Assembly (NCBI GenBank): GCA_013042795.1
Contig: JABDPK010000248.1
Coordinates: forward strand, 1 to 7,584
From: Saprospiraceae bacterium
GTDB lineage: Bacteria; Bacteroidota; Bacteroidia; Chitinophagales; Saprospiraceae
Length of the DNA stretch: 7,584 nucleotides
Reading direction: 5' to 3'
The notes beneath the pieces are model-generated. The model made no database searches. It saw only the letters and a program-made list of their open reading frames with translations, and had not been told where the DNA came from. This document shows positions 54 through 7,584 of the stretch, in pieces. Each line of letters starts with the position of its first letter. Position 1 is the first letter of the stretch. The position numbers were made by a program, and so were the translations under genes.

Positions 54-1262
54 ATGAAAAATAGAACATTATTTCTCAAAGAAATTATAAGTGTATTTCT
101 GCTTTTAAGCACATTTAATACAATTGCACAGGATATCAGGATTTCAATTGAAGAAGCTATAGAAATCGGAATCAATAATAATGCGGGCATACTAAGTGAT
201 CAAATCAGAGTTGAACAAAATTCAGTTCTTTCGAAATCTGGTTTAAATAATAATGCTACTCAAATTGTATTCACAGGAGAAGAATTTGGCGCCGAGGGAT
301 ATACTGGATTGTACTCGTTGAATGTACAGCAAAATTTCAATTTACCTAAAGCTCATTCCATCCAAAAGGAGTATTACCTCTCGACTAAAAACCTGGCCGA
401 GAAACAACTTGTTCTGACCAGGAAAGCCCTGGTAAAAGAAATCACCAAAGCATACATCAGTTTACAATATGCCAAACAAAACCAGGAGTTACTTACGCGG
501 TTTACAGCATTAAATGAAGATTTTAACAGGGTAACAAAACTGCGTTTCGAGACAGGAGAAACCGGTATTATTCCTAAAGTTGTAGCTGAGACTGGGTTGA
601 TGGAAGCCAGGCTTGAGGAAACTAATGGAATTTCTGATTATGAAAATGCCAGAATAATTTTTAATCAATGGCTCAGGACAGAAGATAATTATGATGTTCA
701 AGGTGAATTATCAACTTCTGTTGTCTTGGATATTGATTCATTATTTCCTGAAAATCCGCATATGTTATTCCTGGCAGCAAAAAATCAAGTGGCTTCAGCC
801 CGCATTAATCAATCACGAGCACAATTGCTTCCACAAATAAATTCTGGATTGATGCTTCAGACAACATCTGGTGCCTTTCCATTATTTGGCTTTCAAATTG
901 GTATTAACCTTCCCTTGTTCAATAAAAATACAAAGCAGAAAATTGAGGCTTCTGAACTAGGGTTAAAGATTCAGGAAGAAGAAAACCGGGAACAAGCAAA
1001 ACGGATGCGACTCGCCATTGAAAGTCTGATGAATAATATGTTAAAAAAACAAAACACCATTAAGCAGCTTGATGAATCAATCAAACCTTTGCTGCTGGAG
1101 CTCAAGGACATCAGCTTTGTAGCATACCAGGAGGGAGAAATCAGTTACCTGGAATACCTGAATGGATTCGAGCAACTTATGAGTATGAACAAAAGACTCT
1201 TGAAAGCACAATATGAATTTCATTTGTTAAAAGCTGATCTGGAATACCTGCTTTCTAACTAG
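54..1262 (+). CDS. TolC/CzcC-family outer-membrane efflux protein
   Basis: This encodes the outer-membrane channel and periplasmic tunnel of a tripartite RND efflux pump. The 402-residue product starts with a Sec signal peptide (residues 1 to about 25: basic MKNR, a hydrophobic core, then TIAQ-D). The mature N-terminus, ISIEEAIEIGINNN, is the typical opening of an OEP domain. There are two OEP repeats (about 30-215 and 230-400), each with long amphipathic helices, and the second contains the beta-strand signature GINLPLFNKN near residues 282-291. There is no lipobox cysteine, so it is probably not lipidated, unlike many proteobacterial CzcC/CusC proteins. The length is at the short end of the family's usual range, as expected for CzcC-like members. 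The ATG has an A-rich leader without a Shine-Dalgarno. It lies 26 bases before the RND permease on the same strand, so the two are likely co-transcribed. The family is clear; the substrate is not. Confidence 0.9.
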   Translation: MKNRTLFLKEIISVFLLLSTFNTIAQDIRISIEEAIEIGINNNAGILSDQIRVEQNSVLSKSGLNNNATQIVFTGEEFGAEGYTGLYSLNVQQNFNLPKAHSIQKEYYLSTKNLAEKQLVLTRKALVKEITKAYISLQYAKQNQELLTRFTALNEDFNRVTKLRFETGETGIIPKVVAETGLMEARLEETNGISDYENARIIFNQWLRTEDNYDVQGELSTSVVLDIDSLFPENPHMLFLAAKNQVASARINQSRAQLLPQINSGLMLQTTSGAFPLFGFQIGINLPLFNKNTKQKIEASELGLKIQEEENREQAKRMRLAIESLMNNMLKKQNTIKQLDESIKPLLLELKDISFVAYQEGEISYLEYLNGFEQLMSMNKRLLKAQYEFHLLKADLEYLLSN

Positions 1263-1288
1263 TAGAAATTCTCTATATATAATAAATC

Positions 1289-4200
1289 ATGTTAAATAAA
1301 ATAATTGAGATATCATTAGAATACCGTTTGCTGGTACTCGCAGGATTTATAATGGTCATGGTAACCGGAGGTTATATTGCCTCGGAAATGGATGTAGATG
1401 TATTTCCTGACCTGACTGCACCTACTGTCACGATAATGACTGAAGCCCATGGGATGGCGACTGTTGAAGTGGAAAGGTTGGTGACTTTTCCTATAGAATC
1501 ATCCTTGAATGGAGCTCCTAATATACGTAGGATTAGGTCTTCATCAGCAATGGGTATATCCATCATATGGGCTGAATTTGAATGGGGAACAGACATCTAT
1601 AAGGCCAGGCAGATCGTCAATGAAAAACTGGCTACAGCTGCCAATAAATTGCCGGAAAGCATTAAAAGTCCGGTACTTGCTCCTATTTCATCGATTATGG
1701 GTGAAATTATGTTCTTAAGCTTAAGTTCAGATAGTTTATCACCCATGGAGCTGAGAAATTGGGCGGACTGGAATCTGAGACCACAGCTTCTTGCAACACA
1801 GGGTGTTGCACAGGTCATTGTGATCGGGGGGGACTTTAAGCAGTATGAAATTGCTGCCTCACCAGAAAAAATGAAGTATTATGGCATTTCCATTAATGAA
1901 CTTGAAGAAGCTGCTGCAGCCTCCACCAGGAATGCTTCAGGAGGCTTTATTAACGCTTATGGAAACCAATTTATAATTCAGGGTGAAGGAAGAACGACTT
2001 CGGTACAGCAAATTGGCGAGACCTTAATAAAAATGGAAGGTAATAAACCTGTAAGTATACAGGATGTTGCTGAAGTTCAAATATCCAGTGCTCCTAAAAT
2101 CGGAGATGGAGCTGTCTCTGGAAAACCTTCTGTCATTCTGACGATAAAGAAACAACCCACTGCAAATACGCTTAAGCTTACAAAAAGAATTGAAGTTACA
2201 TTAGAAAAATTCGAACAACAATTGCCTGAAGGTGTCGAACTGAACTCTCATTTATTCAGGCAATCAGATTTTATCCAGGCCTCTATCGATAACCTGAAAA
2301 GAACACTTCTTGAAGGCGGACTTTTTGTATCAATTATTCTGTTTTTATTCCTGCTTAACTGGAGAACTACATTAATTTCTCTTTTAGCCATCCCAGTATC
2401 TTTACTAGTCACAATTATCGCCTTAAAATTACTGGGATATACCATCAACACTATGAGCCTTGGAGGAATGGCCATTGCAATTGGCGCTTTGGTAGACGAC
2501 GCCATCATAGATGTAGAAAATATTTTCAAAAGGCTAAGAGAGAATGCGATAAAGCCTAAAGACGAAAAAAGCAGCTCCATGAAAATTATTTATGAAGCTT
2601 CTTCAGAAATAAGGAATTCTATTCTCATCGCAACTCTTATAATTATAATGGCTTTTATTCCCCTGTTCTTTCTCAGTGGCATGGAAGGCAGATTACTGGA
2701 ACCTCTTGGAATATCCTTTATCGTAGCTATTTTCACTTCCTTGTTTGTGGCAGTAACTTTAACTCCAGTCCTTTCCAGTTACTTATTGATTAATGAAGCG
2801 CAGTTGATTAAACAGGCTAAGGGAAGTTTGGTTGAACGTTTTTTTTCAGGCTTATATCATTCAATATTAAAAAAGACACTGGCGTTCCCACGAAGCATTA
2901 TTGTTTCTGTTTTAGCGCTATTCGTATTTTCTATGATTGTATTATCCGGCTTAGGGAGAAGCTTCCTTCCTGAGTTTAATGAAGGTGCTTTGGTAGTCTC
3001 TGTCGTTACCCCTCCCGGTACATCATTGGAGGAATCTGGAAAGACAGGAAAACTGGTGGAAGAACTCCTGCTTGAATTTCCTGAAGTTTCAATCACTTCT
3101 CGAAGAACAGGTCGTGCGGAAATGGACGAACATTCCCAAAGTGCTAATTCATCAGAAGTTGAAGTGCCTTTTAAACTAAAAGACCGCGATCGAGATGAAT
3201 TTTTAGATGATATAAGAAAAAAACTTTCAATTGTTCCTGGAGCAAACATTACAATTGGTATGCCGATCGCACACAGAATAGATCATATGTTGTCAGGAAC
3301 AAGAGCAAACATTGCCATAAAAATTTTTGGACCTGAATTAAACAGACTTTTCACAATTGCCAACAAAGTAAAATCTGCAATTGAGCAGACTGGAGGCCTG
3401 GTAGATGTCAATGTAGAACAATTGATTGAGGTACCCCAAATAAGGATTATTCCAAATCGTGTCATGCTTGCAAAATACGGGATTAAACTTGGTGACTTCA
3501 TGGATTTTATTGATGTTGCTTTTGCAGGTGAGACTGTGGGACAGGTTTTTGAAGGTGAAAGGGCATATGATCTTGTAGTCAGGTTTAATGAACAAAACAG
3601 GAGTAATATTGAGGCTATCAGAAACTGTCTGGTGGACACAGAAACAAATGAGAAGATTCCATTACATTATGTTGCAAATGTTATAAATGATTCCAACCCT
3701 CATAATATAGGAAGAGAAAATGTTCAGCGTAAAATTGTTGTTTCAGGAAATGTATCTGGCAGAGATCTTAGATCAGTTGTAAATGATATTCAATCCAGAA
3801 TTGATAAAGAAGTAACATTTCCAGAAGGATACAGGGTTGAATTCGGAGGCCAATTTGAAAATGAAGCAAAAGCTACAAGGATGCTTATGTTAACTTCCAT
3901 CGGTGCCGTCATCATTATATTTCTATTACTGTTTCTTGAATTTAGAATTCTTCGATTAGCTGGAATAGTCATCCTAAATTTACCGCTTGCTTTGATCGGT
4001 GGAATCTTTAGTGTTTACTTTACTTCTGGCATAATATCTATTGCATCAACTATTGGTTTCATTAGTTTATTCGGAATAGCTGCAAGAAATGGCATCTTAC
4101 TTATCAGCAGATACCGTTTGCTTGAACAGCAAGGAATGAATTTAAAAGATACAATTCTTAATGGTTCTCTGGACAGGTTAAACCCAATCCTGATGACAGC

Positions 4201-4357
4201 ACTTACAACCGGTCTGGCTCTAATCCCACTAGCTGTCGCCAGCCATCAGGCTGGAAGTGAAATTCAAAGTCCGATGGCCGTAGTCATTTTAGGTGGATTA
4301 ATAAGTTCAACAATATTGAATCTTGTAGTTATACCGGCTATTTACTCATTAAAGTAA
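1289..4357 (+). CDS. CzcA/CusA-family heavy-metal efflux RND permease
   Basis: This is a proton-driven inner-membrane antiporter, the trimeric engine of the tripartite pump whose outer-membrane channel is encoded just upstream. At 1022 residues it is full length for the HME-RND family. TM1 is near 13-33, followed by a first periplasmic porter half, TM2-6 (about 340-500), TM7 (about 538-555), a second porter half, and TM8-12 (about 872-1020). Family signatures are present: FPDLTAPTV after TM1, SFLPEFNEGAL around E562, RIDHMLSG at 663-670 and GIAARNG at 929-935. The TM4 relay motif reads LVDDAIIDVEN, with D403, D404, D408 and E410. As I recall the family, CzcA has VDGAV and CusA has VDAAV here, so this belongs to a VDD-type subgroup. 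H666 and M667 lie in the segment that holds a copper-binding Met in CusA. Metal specificity cannot be assigned; nickel, cobalt or zinc are possible. A run of seven G lies inside the gene at 1826-1832. Confidence 0.93.
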   Translation: MLNKIIEISLEYRLLVLAGFIMVMVTGGYIASEMDVDVFPDLTAPTVTIMTEAHGMATVEVERLVTFPIESSLNGAPNIRRIRSSSAMGISIIWAEFEWGTDIYKARQIVNEKLATAANKLPESIKSPVLAPISSIMGEIMFLSLSSDSLSPMELRNWADWNLRPQLLATQGVAQVIVIGGDFKQYEIAASPEKMKYYGISINELEEAAAASTRNASGGFINAYGNQFIIQGEGRTTSVQQIGETLIKMEGNKPVSIQDVAEVQISSAPKIGDGAVSGKPSVILTIKKQPTANTLKLTKRIEVTLEKFEQQLPEGVELNSHLFRQSDFIQASIDNLKRTLLEGGLFVSIILFLFLLNWRTTLISLLAIPVSLLVTIIALKLLGYTINTMSLGGMAIAIGALVDDAIIDVENIFKRLRENAIKPKDEKSSSMKIIYEASSEIRNSILIATLIIIMAFIPLFFLSGMEGRLLEPLGISFIVAIFTSLFVAVTLTPVLSSYLLINEAQLIKQAKGSLVERFFSGLYHSILKKTLAFPRSIIVSVLALFVFSMIVLSGLGRSFLPEFNEGALVVSVVTPPGTSLEESGKTGKLVEELLLEFPEVSITSRRTGRAEMDEHSQSANSSEVEVPFKLKDRDRDEFLDDIRKKLSIVPGANITIGMPIAHRIDHMLSGTRANIAIKIFGPELNRLFTIANKVKSAIEQTGGLVDVNVEQLIEVPQIRIIPNRVMLAKYGIKLGDFMDFIDVAFAGETVGQVFEGERAYDLVVRFNEQNRSNIEAIRNCLVDTETNEKIPLHYVANVINDSNPHNIGRENVQRKIVVSGNVSGRDLRSVVNDIQSRIDKEVTFPEGYRVEFGGQFENEAKATRMLMLTSIGAVIIIFLLLFLEFRILRLAGIVILNLPLALIGGIFSVYFTSGIISIASTIGFISLFGIAARNGILLISRYRLLEQQGMNLKDTILNGSLDRLNPILMTALTTGLALIPLAVASHQAGSEIQSPMAVVILGGLISSTILNLVVIPAIYSLK

Positions 4358-4554: not shown

Positions 4555-6267
4555 TTGGACCGTACACAGACCCTCAATTGCCTGTGGAAAGAACAAAATG
4601 AAAATGGTCATCTCTCCCAGGAATTTATTAAGACATGTGCTTCAAATCTCGGCATCTCATCAGTAGAACTGGATGGTGTCATTTCATTCTACCACTTTTT
4701 CAAGAAGAAACCACAAGCTGAATTCACAATTTACGTGAACAATAGCATTGTTTCTGAAACAAAAGGTTTGTCAAGGATAAAGGAAGCTTTTGTAAGAGAA
4801 ACAGGTGCCGATTTTGGAAAGATTGGTCCTGCTGGAAAATTTGGATTATATGAAACTGCCTGTATTGGCTTGAGCGATGTGGAGCCGGCAGCATTGATCA
4901 ATTTTCACCCTTTTACAAATTTGACAAGCCTCAAGGTGCGTAAAATAATTGCTGCCCTGAAAAAAGGTGAACCCGTCGAATCTATCTGTGATACCATTGA
5001 AGGTAATATCAGATACTATCCTCCTGCAGGAAAGTCTGTCTTTATCAGGGAATATCATCCAGGCCTTACAGTTCATAAACTGGCTAATCTTGGCCAGAAA
5101 GGTATCATTAAAGAAATCAAAAAATCCGGACTACGGGGAATGGGAGGCGCTTACTTCCCTGCAGGTATAAAAATGGAATCCTGTGCCAATCAGCCTGCAA
5201 ATCCAAAATACGTTGTTTGCAATGCGGATGAGGGAGAACCTGGTACATTCAAAGACAGGTTAATACTGCATAAATATCCCGGCCTGATGCTCGAAGGCAT
5301 GATTGCTTCAGGATATGCGATAGGGGCACGTGAAGGTATAATTTACCTGAGAGCAGAATATCAGTGGCTTCAAAAAGACCTGGAAAATGCGATTGAAGAT
5401 TTTAAACGTCGTGGATATCTTGGTAAATCCGTGAGTGGTATTGAAGGATTTGATTTTGATATAAGAATTCAATTAGGTGCAGGAGCTTATGTATGTGGCG
5501 AAGAAACCGCGATGTTGAATTCAATGGAAGGGAAACGAGGTGAACCAAGGACTAAGCAATATTTCCCAACAGAACGAGGATTTCTGAATAAACCTACCCA
5601 AGTCAATAATGTAGAAACATTTGCTGCCATAAGCAGAATAATTGAACTTGGCCCGGATCACTTTATGAGTTCAGGTACTGAAAGTTCACCAGGAACAAAG
5701 CTTATAAGTATATCAGGAGATTGCCACAAACCAGGAATTTACGAAATTGAATGGGGTACAAAAATTTCTGATCTGCTTAATTTATGTCATGCAGATGATC
5801 CATTCTTCATCCAGGTAAGTGGTCCTTCCGGGCAATGTCTTAATCCAAACGATTTTGAAAGGGAATTATCCATGGATGACATTCGGTGTGGAGGTTCTTT
5901 TATGATTTTCAATTCAAAGCGGAATCTTCTAAATATACTCAGAAACTTTACCGCTTTTTTCAAAACCGAATCATGTGGTGTCTGTACACCTTGTCGTGCC
6001 GGGAATTTTATAATAGAAAGGAAACTTGAGAAAATTGCCAATGGTCTGGCTTATGCAGAGGACTATGAAGAAATCAAACAATGGGGAAAGATCATGCAAA
6101 GAACAAGCAGATGTGGCTTAGGTAAAGCTGCGACTAATGCCCTCCAGGATGCCTTAAGTAAATGTCCTGATTTCTTTGAGAACAAATTCATGCAGTCCGG
6201 CGATGGATTCAATAAAAAATTCGATATGCGTGCCGCTTTGGAACCATACGAAAAATTTAAAGACTAA
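4555..6267 (+). CDS. hoxF: HoxF, NAD(H)/FMN diaphorase subunit of soluble [NiFe] hydrogenase
   Basis: This subunit exchanges electrons between NAD(H) and the FeS chain of the cytoplasmic NAD-reducing hydrogenase. The 570 residues have the Ralstonia-type layout: a NuoE-like domain (about 1-150) fused to a NuoF-like domain (about 170-570). FMN/NAD(H) signatures include NADEGEPGTFKDR (223-235) and GAGAYVCGEET (308-318) with E316/E317. The [4Fe-4S] ligands are C474, C477, C480 and C520 (CGVCTPC, then SRCGLG). In the NuoE-like domain only C103 remains of the four [2Fe-2S] ligand positions; the others are N62, S67 and S107. The FMN glycine loop reads LRGMGGAYF, with M196 and Y200 where Arg and Gly are usual. 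The start is TTG: the frame has a stop at 4540-4542, no ATG or GTG lies between, and the next in-frame Met is residue 196. The N-terminus is about 14 residues shorter than Ralstonia HoxF as I recall it. The HoxUY gene follows after 9 bases. Confidence 0.93.
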   Translation: MDRTQTLNCLWKEQNENGHLSQEFIKTCASNLGISSVELDGVISFYHFFKKKPQAEFTIYVNNSIVSETKGLSRIKEAFVRETGADFGKIGPAGKFGLYETACIGLSDVEPAALINFHPFTNLTSLKVRKIIAALKKGEPVESICDTIEGNIRYYPPAGKSVFIREYHPGLTVHKLANLGQKGIIKEIKKSGLRGMGGAYFPAGIKMESCANQPANPKYVVCNADEGEPGTFKDRLILHKYPGLMLEGMIASGYAIGAREGIIYLRAEYQWLQKDLENAIEDFKRRGYLGKSVSGIEGFDFDIRIQLGAGAYVCGEETAMLNSMEGKRGEPRTKQYFPTERGFLNKPTQVNNVETFAAISRIIELGPDHFMSSGTESSPGTKLISISGDCHKPGIYEIEWGTKISDLLNLCHADDPFFIQVSGPSGQCLNPNDFERELSMDDIRCGGSFMIFNSKRNLLNILRNFTAFFKTESCGVCTPCRAGNFIIERKLEKIANGLAYAEDYEEIKQWGKIMQRTSRCGLGKAATNALQDALSKCPDFFENKFMQSGDGFNKKFDMRAALEPYEKFKD

Positions 6268-6276
6268 CTGTTTCAA

Positions 6277-7560
6277 ATGAAAGAGCAAATCACAATTAAA
6301 ATTGATGGTAAAGAGATCAAAACAAAGGCCGGGATGAACCTGGTTGATGTCGCCAGTGAAAATGGCATCTTTATCCCTTCCCTTTGCTACTATAAGCATA
6401 TAGATCCTCCTCTTGGTACTTGCCGAGTGTGTACTTGTAAAGTAGAAGGTCATGACAGACCTTCCTGCACTACCAAAACTTTTGATGGTATGAATGTGCA
6501 GGTAAATACTGAAGATCTTCTGGATTTAAGGAAAGCTATTCTGGAAATGATGTTTGCAGAAGGAAATCACTTTTGCCCATCATGTGAAAAAAGTGGTGAT
6601 TGTGACATGCAGCACATGGGGTATGAAATGGGCGTTTCACATACAAGATACCCGCACCTCTTTAAAGACCGAATTGTTGATTTTACGCCAAAGAGGATAA
6701 TTATCGAACATAACAGATGTGTAAAATGCAAGAGATGTGTTGAGGAAGTATTTAATGATGATGGTGAAAGAATCTTTTCATTCTGTAATCGGGGAAATGA
6801 AACTGTGGTTGGTGTAGATTATGATGCCGAAGCTAAACTATCAGAAGAACAAGCTTTTGCTGCAATGCACCTTTGCCCTACCGGTGCTATACTGGTCAAA
6901 GGAAAAAGCTTCACAAATCCATTTGGAGACCGCAGATTTGATATGGTATCCGCAAATAAGGAAAAAGAAGAGAGTGACTTAAAGGAAGTATTCAGCAAAG
7001 GCAATGATAAACCAAAAGAGAAAAAAATCATAGCTACTACATCATTGGCAGGATGTTTTGGGTGCCACATGTCATTACTGGATGTTGACGAGGGACTTCT
7101 TGATCTCATAAATGTAGTTGACTTTAATAAGTCGCCTTTAACGGATATCAAAGAATTTACTGAAATATGTGATGTAGGTTTGATTGAAGGTGGATGTTGT
7201 AACGCAGAGAATATAGAAGTACTAAGGGAGTTTAGAAAAAAATGTAAGCTTCTTGTATCTGTAGGTGAATGTGCGATCTGGGGAGGCGTGCCCGCAATGA
7301 GAAACACAATTGCCCTCGAAGAGTGCCTCGAAGAAGCATACCTCAATAGTATGACAACTGAAACCGGGGAGAGTACAATACCTTACCATGAAGATCTTCC
7401 TAAAATTCTGGACAAGGTATACCCGTGCCATGAAATTGTAAAAATGGATTATCACATACCTGGGTGCCCACCTTCAGCAAATCACATTTGGAAAGCGGTG
7501 CAGAACTTGCTGTGGGGTGATGAATTCTCGGTATTATATTCTGAATTTAAATATGACTAA
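6277..7560 (+). CDS. hoxU-hoxY: HoxU-HoxY fusion: ferredoxin-like electron-transfer subunit plus [NiFe] hydrogenase small subunit
   Basis: One 427-residue frame covers two proteins that are separate in the known Ralstonia enzyme. The HoxU/NuoG-N-like part (1 to about 225) holds a plant-type [2Fe-2S] site (C37, C49, C52, C64), a His-Cys3 [4Fe-4S] site (H98, C100, C103, C109; GNHFCPSCEKSGDC), and a second [4Fe-4S] site (C148, C151, C154, C200; CVKCKRC then CPTG). A charged Lys/Glu-rich linker spans about 226-250. The HoxY part (about 251-427) has the proximal-cluster ligands C260 and C263 (GCFGC), C332 (GECAIWGG) and C397 (PGCPP), plus conserved YPCHEIVKMDY. It would relay electrons between the NiFe site on HoxH and the FMN on HoxF. 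An unusual Cys pair (C307, C308) follows conserved E304. The lengths of both halves match the separate subunits, so nothing is missing. The ATG lies 9 bases after hoxF, and the next start 6 bases after this stop, so it is clearly operonic. The frame is continuous, with no sign of a stop-start junction in the linker. Confidence 0.93.
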   Translation: MKEQITIKIDGKEIKTKAGMNLVDVASENGIFIPSLCYYKHIDPPLGTCRVCTCKVEGHDRPSCTTKTFDGMNVQVNTEDLLDLRKAILEMMFAEGNHFCPSCEKSGDCDMQHMGYEMGVSHTRYPHLFKDRIVDFTPKRIIIEHNRCVKCKRCVEEVFNDDGERIFSFCNRGNETVVGVDYDAEAKLSEEQAFAAMHLCPTGAILVKGKSFTNPFGDRRFDMVSANKEKEESDLKEVFSKGNDKPKEKKIIATTSLAGCFGCHMSLLDVDEGLLDLINVVDFNKSPLTDIKEFTEICDVGLIEGGCCNAENIEVLREFRKKCKLLVSVGECAIWGGVPAMRNTIALEECLEEAYLNSMTTETGESTIPYHEDLPKILDKVYPCHEIVKMDYHIPGCPPSANHIWKAVQNLLWGDEFSVLYSEFKYD

Positions 7561-7566
7561 AATAAG

Positions 7567-7584
7567 ATGAATATGGGTAAGAAA
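7567..7584 (+). CDS. hoxH: start of next gene, probably hoxH ([NiFe] hydrogenase large subunit), cut by window edge
   Basis: An ATG 6 bases after the HoxUY stop opens a frame reading MNMGKK before the window ends; a second in-frame ATG at 7573 is an alternative start. In Ralstonia-type operons the gene after the small subunit encodes HoxH, which carries the NiFe(CN)2CO site, and HoxH proteins typically begin with a short basic stretch before the TRIEGH motif. The six codons fit that but cannot prove it. Identity rests on gene order alone. Confidence 0.5.

Follow-up and report, generated by a model that had tools for sequence, protein, structure and literature searches.

A fused HoxU-HoxY gene, predicted to belong to a group 3d NAD-linked [NiFe]-hydrogenase, in a clade of Bacteroidota

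HoxU and HoxY lie in a single open reading frame in a Saprospiraceae genome. The stretch of DNA that was analyzed, here called the window, is 7,584 nucleotides long. The frame at 6277-7560 on the forward strand runs from ATG to TAA and encodes 427 amino acids with no interruption by a stop codon or frame shift. The features of the locus are as follows.

4555..6267, forward strand: hoxF, 570 amino acids from a TTG, true start unsure; NuoE-like thioredoxin-fold domain followed by NuoF-like FMN/NAD and 4Fe-4S domains (PF01257, PF01512, PF10589)
6277..7560, forward strand: hoxUY, fused HoxU-HoxY gene, 427 amino acids (open reading frame, Pfam, relatives, alignment)
6277..6942, forward strand: HoxU domain, residues 1-222, ligand sets for one 2Fe-2S and two 4Fe-4S clusters (Fer2_4, NADH-G_4Fe-4S_3, Fer4_Nqo3; invariant ligands)
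6943..7017, forward strand: Lys/Glu-rich linker, about residues 223-247 (composition and length distribution in relatives)
7018..7560, forward strand: HoxY domain, residues 248-427, proximal-cluster ligands (PF01058, match to 5xf9_C, invariant cysteines)
7567..7584, forward strand: start of the following gene, a probable hoxH that is truncated where the window ends (ATG 6 bases past the hoxUY stop; position of hoxH in relatives)

Both halves of the protein have the domains and ligands of complete subunits. Above curated cut-offs, Pfam finds Fer2_4 at residues 3-78, NADH-G_4Fe-4S_3 at 85-124, and Fer4_Nqo3 at 141-205, which are the iron-sulfur domains of HoxU and NuoG, and then Oxidored_q6 (PF01058, 99 bits) at 260-410, the small-subunit domain of the HoxY/NuoB type. 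In an alignment of 98 fused proteins, including that of the window, the invariant residues of the HoxU half include C37, C49, C52, C64, H98, C100, C103, C109, C148, C151, C154, and C200, and those of the HoxY half include C260, C263, C332, and C397. The assignment of each residue to its cluster follows the pattern of the family. The ligand sets of a group 3d HoxU (one 2Fe-2S and two 4Fe-4S) and the four proximal-cluster cysteines of a group 3d HoxY are all present. The usual group 3d state, which is not strictly defining, has HoxU and HoxY on separate chains, and hoxUY departs from it.

The neighboring genes fit a group 3d operon. The diaphorase subunit with an FMN/NAD domain is encoded at 4555-6267 (PF01512, PF10589), and it aligns with HoxF of Cupriavidus necator and with other HoxF proteins. 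In a close relative from a Saprospiraceae metagenome-assembled genome (MAG) (L001, 82% identity), the gene names read from translations give the order hoxF-hoxUY-hoxH-maturation protease, with hypA, hypB, and hypF upstream on the opposite strand. The hoxH gene directly follows hoxUY in this locus and in two others (L022 and L027), and in all three HoxH carries RLCGIC and DPCLSC, the N- and C-terminal CxxC ligand motifs. A preliminary description of the window had proposed a full HoxU and a full HoxY in one unbroken frame, a linker at about residues 226-250, and a three-chain variant of the group 3d enzyme. The open reading frame, the Pfam domains, and the invariant ligands confirm the first; the linker was found close by, at about 223-247; and a group 3d-type operon is supported by hoxF upstream and the probable hoxH start downstream.

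Two side observations concern the upstream part of the window. NuoE-like 2Fe-2S domains have a four-cysteine pattern. The NuoE-like part of the window HoxF is without the usual four cluster cysteines, as in C. necator, and the portion of PMC3189943 on this domain of C. necator HoxF reports that its 2Fe-2S cluster is absent. Upstream of hoxF, positions 54-4357 encode an outer-membrane efflux protein and a CusA/CzcA-type RND pump, while L001 has hyp genes there.

Comparison with solved structures favors a Hox enzyme over other complexes that share these modules. The possibility that hoxUY is part of such a complex, for example a bifurcating HydABCSL or a complex I-like enzyme, arises because HydA (7t2r_A) is the top Foldseek match and also the second sequence match among solved structures. 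In the sequence search the HoxU half matches 7t2r_A (residues 3-209, 152.5 bits) ahead of HoxU 5xf9_B (residues 6-223, 129.6 bits). However, the best solved relative of residues 246-427 is HoxY of Hydrogenophilus thermoluteolus (5xf9_C, 178.8 bits), ahead of 7t2r_E (135.3 bits), and HoxU is the top NCBIfam match (NF005745, the HoxU equivalog, 172.9 bits over residues 5-224), though its score is below the curated cut-off of 333. Also, no extra diaphorase-type gene was found among the open reading frames of at least 110 amino acids read in 13 kb around L001, the one full operon inspected. The features of HydABCSL, a small subunit closest to HydS and extra diaphorase genes, are absent from the fused protein and the L001 operon, and membership in such a complex is highly improbable.

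The predicted structure agrees with the sequence searches. The AlphaFold2 model, built from a 98-row alignment, has a mean pLDDT of 80.3 and a pTM of 0.70, with modest confidence in parts: ten-residue means are 55-72 over residues 211-250, and pLDDT falls below 50 at 286-290 and 338-344, both in the HoxY half. The best solved matches in Foldseek were 7t2r_A at the top, the [FeFe] HydA 8a6t_A, HoxU 5xf9_F/B, 7t30_A, and HoxY 5xf9_C, nothing beyond what the sequence had already given.

The relatives indicate that the HoxU-HoxY fusion is a genuine, inherited trait of one Bacteroidota group. Three protein searches, which include the search for the same domain order proposed in the preliminary description, gave 305 distinct proteins among the matches listed, and 302 of these exceed 400 residues and are full-length fusions containing the two halves. 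In the remaining three (P0122, P0123, and P0125) only HoxU is present. With the window protein counted, the four cysteine motifs occur in the expected order in 302 of 303 full-length fused proteins, and P0234 misses one. Taken singly over the same 303 proteins, the strict 2Fe-2S spacing is matched in 249, GCPP in 301, and H.C..C.....C in 302. The best 120 matches listed from the search with the window protein have 416-446 residues, both domain sets, and 64-100% identity over 98-100% of the query. One of them, P0002 from a Saprospiraceae MAG, is nearly identical to the window protein (100% after rounding, with at least one difference in the linker), and it represents two member sequences on three contigs from several sources. 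Five fused proteins lie on contigs of 3-9 Mb (P0023, P0050, P0077, P0138, and P0145). The searches with joined HoxU and HoxY sequences as queries scored 7,998 and 7,988 candidates and listed the best 120 from each, so rarer fusions may have escaped detection. Separate fusion events in the lineages of C. necator or the Desulfobulbaceae were considered and rejected, as these searches listed both-domain proteins only at 44-52% identity.

A sequencing or assembly error is a barely conceivable source of the long frame. Some unfused relatives (L004, L005, and L073) have adjacent hoxU and hoxY in the same frame, separated by a short spacer with one stop codon, so a single error, by loss of the stop codon or a change of frame at the boundary of two normal genes, could mimic a fusion. 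Against this, hundreds of distinct proteins have an identical architecture, several of them on the 3-9 Mb contigs; the length of the linker is nearly constant while its sequence has diverged; and the fused sequences group as a clade. The same architecture in hundreds of proteins excludes in practice a missed stop or frameshift at 6940-7030, and the indel explanation was rejected on the evidence of relatives with the same open fusion in both proteins and genomes.

The distribution of the fused protein indicates that it is the common state of a clade spread over Bacteroidota and not a local oddity. The sources named in the search with the window protein are Saprospiraceae, Lewinellaceae, Phaeodactylibacter, Chitinophagales, and Cyclobacteriaceae. 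One of the joined-query searches adds Namhaeicola, Lutibacter (L. flavus), Abyssalbus (A. ytuae), and Seonamhaeicola, and the other adds Botryobacter (B. ruber), Hymenobacteraceae, and Ginsengibacter (G. hankyongi). Two fused proteins from MAGs labeled Woeseiaceae (P0156) and Acidobacteria (P0226) are nested in the Bacteroidota clade, and their placement may reflect mis-binning or gene transfer.

Scans of genomes found open fusions in the family and the wider phylum of L001. When a species-genome collection was scanned with the window protein, 13 loci were found: two fused, both in Saprospiraceae, ten with separate hoxU and hoxY, and one cut at a contig end. In the phylum of L001, 395 genomes were sampled: 350 have some match at E <= 0.001, and seven, that of L001 among them, have a stop-free match of nearly full length. 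Among the weaker matches listed in those genomes, G125 and G140 hold recognizable separate pairs, and the remainder are more distant pairs or single regions resembling NuoG/HydA or the small subunit. In the family of L001, 21 of 120 genomes have a match at E <= 1e-35; 19 of these are open fusions, one of which begins at a contig edge, and two are separate pairs, in G456 (L073, with one in-frame TAA) and G480 (L075). Both pairs encode an unfused hydrogenase from a clade of the Bacteroidales/Desulfobulbaceae type, which gives this family two kinds of Hox enzyme.

Outside this phylum, 1,070 genomes of four other phyla had no stop-free match at E <= 1e-40 covering both halves. Eleven matches in these genomes cover both halves, and every one contains at least one stop. 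The phyla are those of the Ca. Aceula, Desulfobulbaceae, Lentisphaerae, and Sulfurovum records. The four surveys covered 285, 297, 288, and 200 genomes, with P0124 as the query for the first three and the window protein for the last. In the survey of 297 genomes, the best six of a larger number of candidates were scored in many genomes, and matches to one half were inspected in part. Apart from the scan of the species-genome collection, the genome surveys for the fusion cover the phylum of L001 and these four phyla.

The fusion most likely arose once in the Bacteroidota clade, when neighboring hoxU and hoxY genes became joined end to end; in several unfused relatives the two genes abut or overlap by four bases. 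Mapping of the fusion on a phylogeny had been suggested in the preliminary description. In a tree built from concatenated HoxU and HoxY alignments, linker excluded, with 88 rows (56 fused and 32 separate), 55 of the 56 fused rows form one clade with support of 100/99. The exception is P0124. The HoxU tree recovers the same clade, again with P0124 outside. Similarly, all 25 fused rows form one clade (100/99) in a HoxH tree of 54 rows, which does not contain P0124; it takes in only loci whose HoxH match reaches about 250 residues, and among its 29 "separate" rows, L013 and L049 carry that label by default. When HoxY is used by itself (180 columns), the fused clade is not recovered, and 55 fused rows fall in one group with C. 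necator and Sulfurovum (81/99), but a single fused clade is not rejected (AU p = 0.297). No split member was found inside the fused clade among the rows sampled.

The trees conflict on the closest unfused relative of the fused clade. It is C. necator plus Sulfurovum in the concatenated tree (97/97) and the HoxU tree (99/94), but in the HoxH tree it is the Bacteroidales/Desulfobulbaceae-type clade (96/89). For the concatenated tree, 30 of the 303 fused proteins were chosen by name or by mutual identity below 70%, and the other 273 were not placed; 29 of the 30 fall in the Bacteroidota-type clade, with P0124 outside. Rows were dropped as duplicate loci (L014-L020, L054, L055, and L076) or because both halves were not present (L013, L021, and L045-L050). 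Loci L077-L102 were found after the trees were made and are not included. One group of distant separate pairs of HoxU-like and HoxY-like proteins, from Bacteroidota genomes (L028 and L030-L044, 31-37% HoxU identity), forms a clade of its own with a pair from an Acaryochloris plasmid (L053). A long-branched fused member (L074, in G506) has a linker (..LLKSARLDRKW..) that by eye resembles the C-terminal tail of distant unfused HoxU-like proteins.

P0124 is probably a second, independent HoxU-HoxY fusion in another lineage. This metagenome protein of 423 amino acids has the same domain order as the window protein, but it comes from a lineage of separate pairs, grouping with those of Ca. Aceula (L006), a genome of the phylum of L001 (L029), and Lichenicola (L052) with support of 98/89. 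Forcing all fused rows including P0124 into one clade is rejected in the concatenated tree (AU p 3.5e-6). In addition, the HoxU part of P0124 still ends in a PIG..VE stretch, which a short linker follows. It is a one-sequence cluster on a 2.6-kb contig, and for that reason the second fusion still calls for confirmation.

The linker is nearly constant in length and variable in sequence. Lysine makes up about 20% of the residues over 293 linkers. The motif filter left 300 proteins, of which 293 allowed the linker length to be measured, and 291 of these gave 25-33 residues; the outliers are P0060 with 42 and P0026 with 5, the latter from a mis-set anchor. In 26 fused loci the distance from the last HoxU motif to SLAGC is 25-32 residues (mean 27.9). 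The HoxU tail and HoxY head of 35 separate pairs add up to 17-47 residues (mean 23.6) when the head is counted from the nearest ATG and loci with HoxY identity below 48% are dropped; the C. necator head is counted too short in this comparison, because the nearest ATG lies within the annotated gene. In H. thermoluteolus, 13 HoxU and 9 HoxY residues lie outside the match, and their sum of 22 is the same as the number of residues at 224-245 of the window protein. The genes hoxU and hoxY overlap by four bases in L009, L010, L029, C. necator (L051), and Lichenicola (L052).

The end of HoxU also differs in sequence between many separate and fused proteins. By eye, 28 of 35 separate HoxU tails end in an IG-x-[DE]-I-E motif (for example L004, L029, L073, L077-L088, and L092-L099). 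An IG..IE-like match is found in only two of the 303 full-length fused proteins, P0124 and P0032, and the latter looks like chance. The HoxU tails of C. necator and Sulfurovum are also without the motif.

The junction provides one way in which some or all of HoxY might still be made as a separate chain, by an internal start or by cleavage of the linker. The linker is rich in lysine and variable, as expected of a protease-sensitive tether. Between 6900 and 7060 the window has two in-frame start codons, an ATG at 6943, which opens the linker, and a TTG at 7045, and an in-frame ATG, GTG, or TTG occurs somewhere in the linker in 19 of 26 fused loci. However, the other seven loci have no start codon in the linker, 14 of the 26 have no linker ATG, and an ATG at the first linker codon is found in seven. 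Over the whole linker, no internal HoxY start position is conserved across the 26 loci. A separately made HoxY is improbable on this evidence.

Several lines of evidence point to hoxUY as the electron-wire subunit of a cytosolic group 3d NAD-linked [NiFe]-hydrogenase: a single uninterrupted frame, the domains and ligands that it encodes, the gene order of related operons, and conservation across one clade of Bacteroidota. This reading is very probable as a whole; it would give the enzyme three chains (HoxF, HoxUY, and HoxH) and inseparable modules. In enzymes of this family, electrons pass between NAD(H) and the NiFe site by way of FMN, the HoxU clusters, and the HoxY cluster. In the fused enzyme, NAD(H) would exchange electrons with FMN in HoxF, and HoxF would do so in turn with the three iron-sulfur clusters in the HoxU half. 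The electrons would then cross a flexible tether, within one chain, and reach the HoxY half, whose single 4Fe-4S cluster would hand them on to the NiFe site that it faces in HoxH. The path itself appears to be unaltered by the fusion; the HoxU and HoxY segments now share one chain, and for this reason the diaphorase and hydrogenase modules should be unable to part. The gene content thus suggests a three-chain enzyme with inseparable modules and fixed 1:1 assembly.

The closest well-known systems have the same modules on separate chains. The soluble NAD-reducing hydrogenase of C. necator (Ralstonia eutropha) H16, also of group 3d, has the gene order hoxF-hoxU-hoxY-hoxH-protease, as in L001 apart from the fusion. 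Its HoxU and HoxY are 45% and 52% identical to those of the window, and in both enzymes the NuoE-like domain fused into HoxF lacks the usual four cysteines. In C. necator, however, two genes with a four-base overlap encode HoxU and HoxY, while in the window a single fused gene does. No HoxI, which belongs to the C. necator enzyme (PMC3189943, in part), was seen among the L001 translations. The NAD-reducing hydrogenase of H. thermoluteolus (5xf9), to which the HoxY half has its best match among solved structures and the HoxU half one of its best, likewise has HoxU and HoxY as separate chains. The cyanobacterial HoxEFUYH consists of five separate subunits, with a HoxEFU diaphorase and a HoxYH hydrogenase (PMC7363133, in part). 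The preliminary description had stated that HoxU and HoxY are separate in Ralstonia, Hydrogenophilus, and cyanobacteria and that the Ralstonia modules can be separated, and these comparisons bear out the first statement and the reports cited below the second.

Dissociation of the modules has been described for the separate-chain enzymes. Sections of PMC3189943 give the module content of the R. eutropha enzyme, report that genetic means allowed HoxHY and HoxFU to be isolated separately, and suggest that detaching the hydrogenase module raises superoxide production. HoxEFUYH of Synechocystis dissociates readily, and HoxEFU has been observed in vivo (PMC7363133, in part). By analogy, the fusion would suppress the detached-diaphorase state and would forbid a HoxEFU-like dissociation. 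There would perhaps be less leakage of electrons to O2 from a detached diaphorase.

Selection and neutral change both carry real weight as explanations of the fusion. A strong adaptive reading holds that the fusion removes the free diaphorase, with no release of HoxFU and no superoxide from a detached diaphorase, giving an aerobically robust single-unit H2:NAD enzyme in which the tether sets the coupling between clusters, and that it arose at least twice, in the main clade and in P0124. Taken as a whole this reading is rather unlikely. Neutral change has a chance not far short of even, and it is compatible with the three-chain enzyme proposed here: translationally coupled neighbors lost a stop, a change that is hard to reverse. 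Adjacency or four-base overlap of hoxU and hoxY in several unfused relatives is consistent with this, as are a linker length near that of the joined tails and a linker sequence that is not conserved. C. necator is an aerobe, and it keeps separate genes. The lack of split members among the sampled rows of the clade, with L073 and L075 belonging elsewhere, counts against neutrality; however, it fits irreversibility as well as selection.

The enzyme type is known, but no description of the fused form was found among the open-access papers listed. The preliminary description allowed that the fusion might prove already common and described. It is common in the Bacteroidota clade, but no description was found in open-access papers searched by title and the start of the abstract, a scope that excludes most subscription journals and bioRxiv preprints. 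Nor was biochemistry on any member of the fused clade found in that literature. The HydDB paper (PMC5037454) classes Phaeodactylibacter xiamenensis, also of the Saprospiraceae, with group 3d hydrogenases by accession, and the words "fused" and "Hox" are absent from its main text. A fused protein of the clade, P0048, is from a Phaeodactylibacter sp.

The three-chain enzyme proposed here may be of use in both research and application. Part of PMC7363133 poses as an open question for Synechocystis whether the Hox diaphorase has a role of its own apart from the hydrogenase, and a clade with inseparable parts is a natural comparison. The suggestion about superoxide (PMC3189943, in part) is made testable by splitting of the linker. 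The natural tether is on offer to enzyme engineers for H2-driven regeneration of NADH. For annotators there is a warning, since the names "NADH-quinone oxidoreductase subunit B family protein" and "(2Fe-2S)-binding protein" conceal a hydrogenase subunit. The term "HoxUY" occurs in nine open-access papers, most of them on cyanobacteria, judged by title. Automatic names from JGI, such as "coenzyme F420-reducing hydrogenase gamma subunit/ferredoxin," already mirror both domains without comment.
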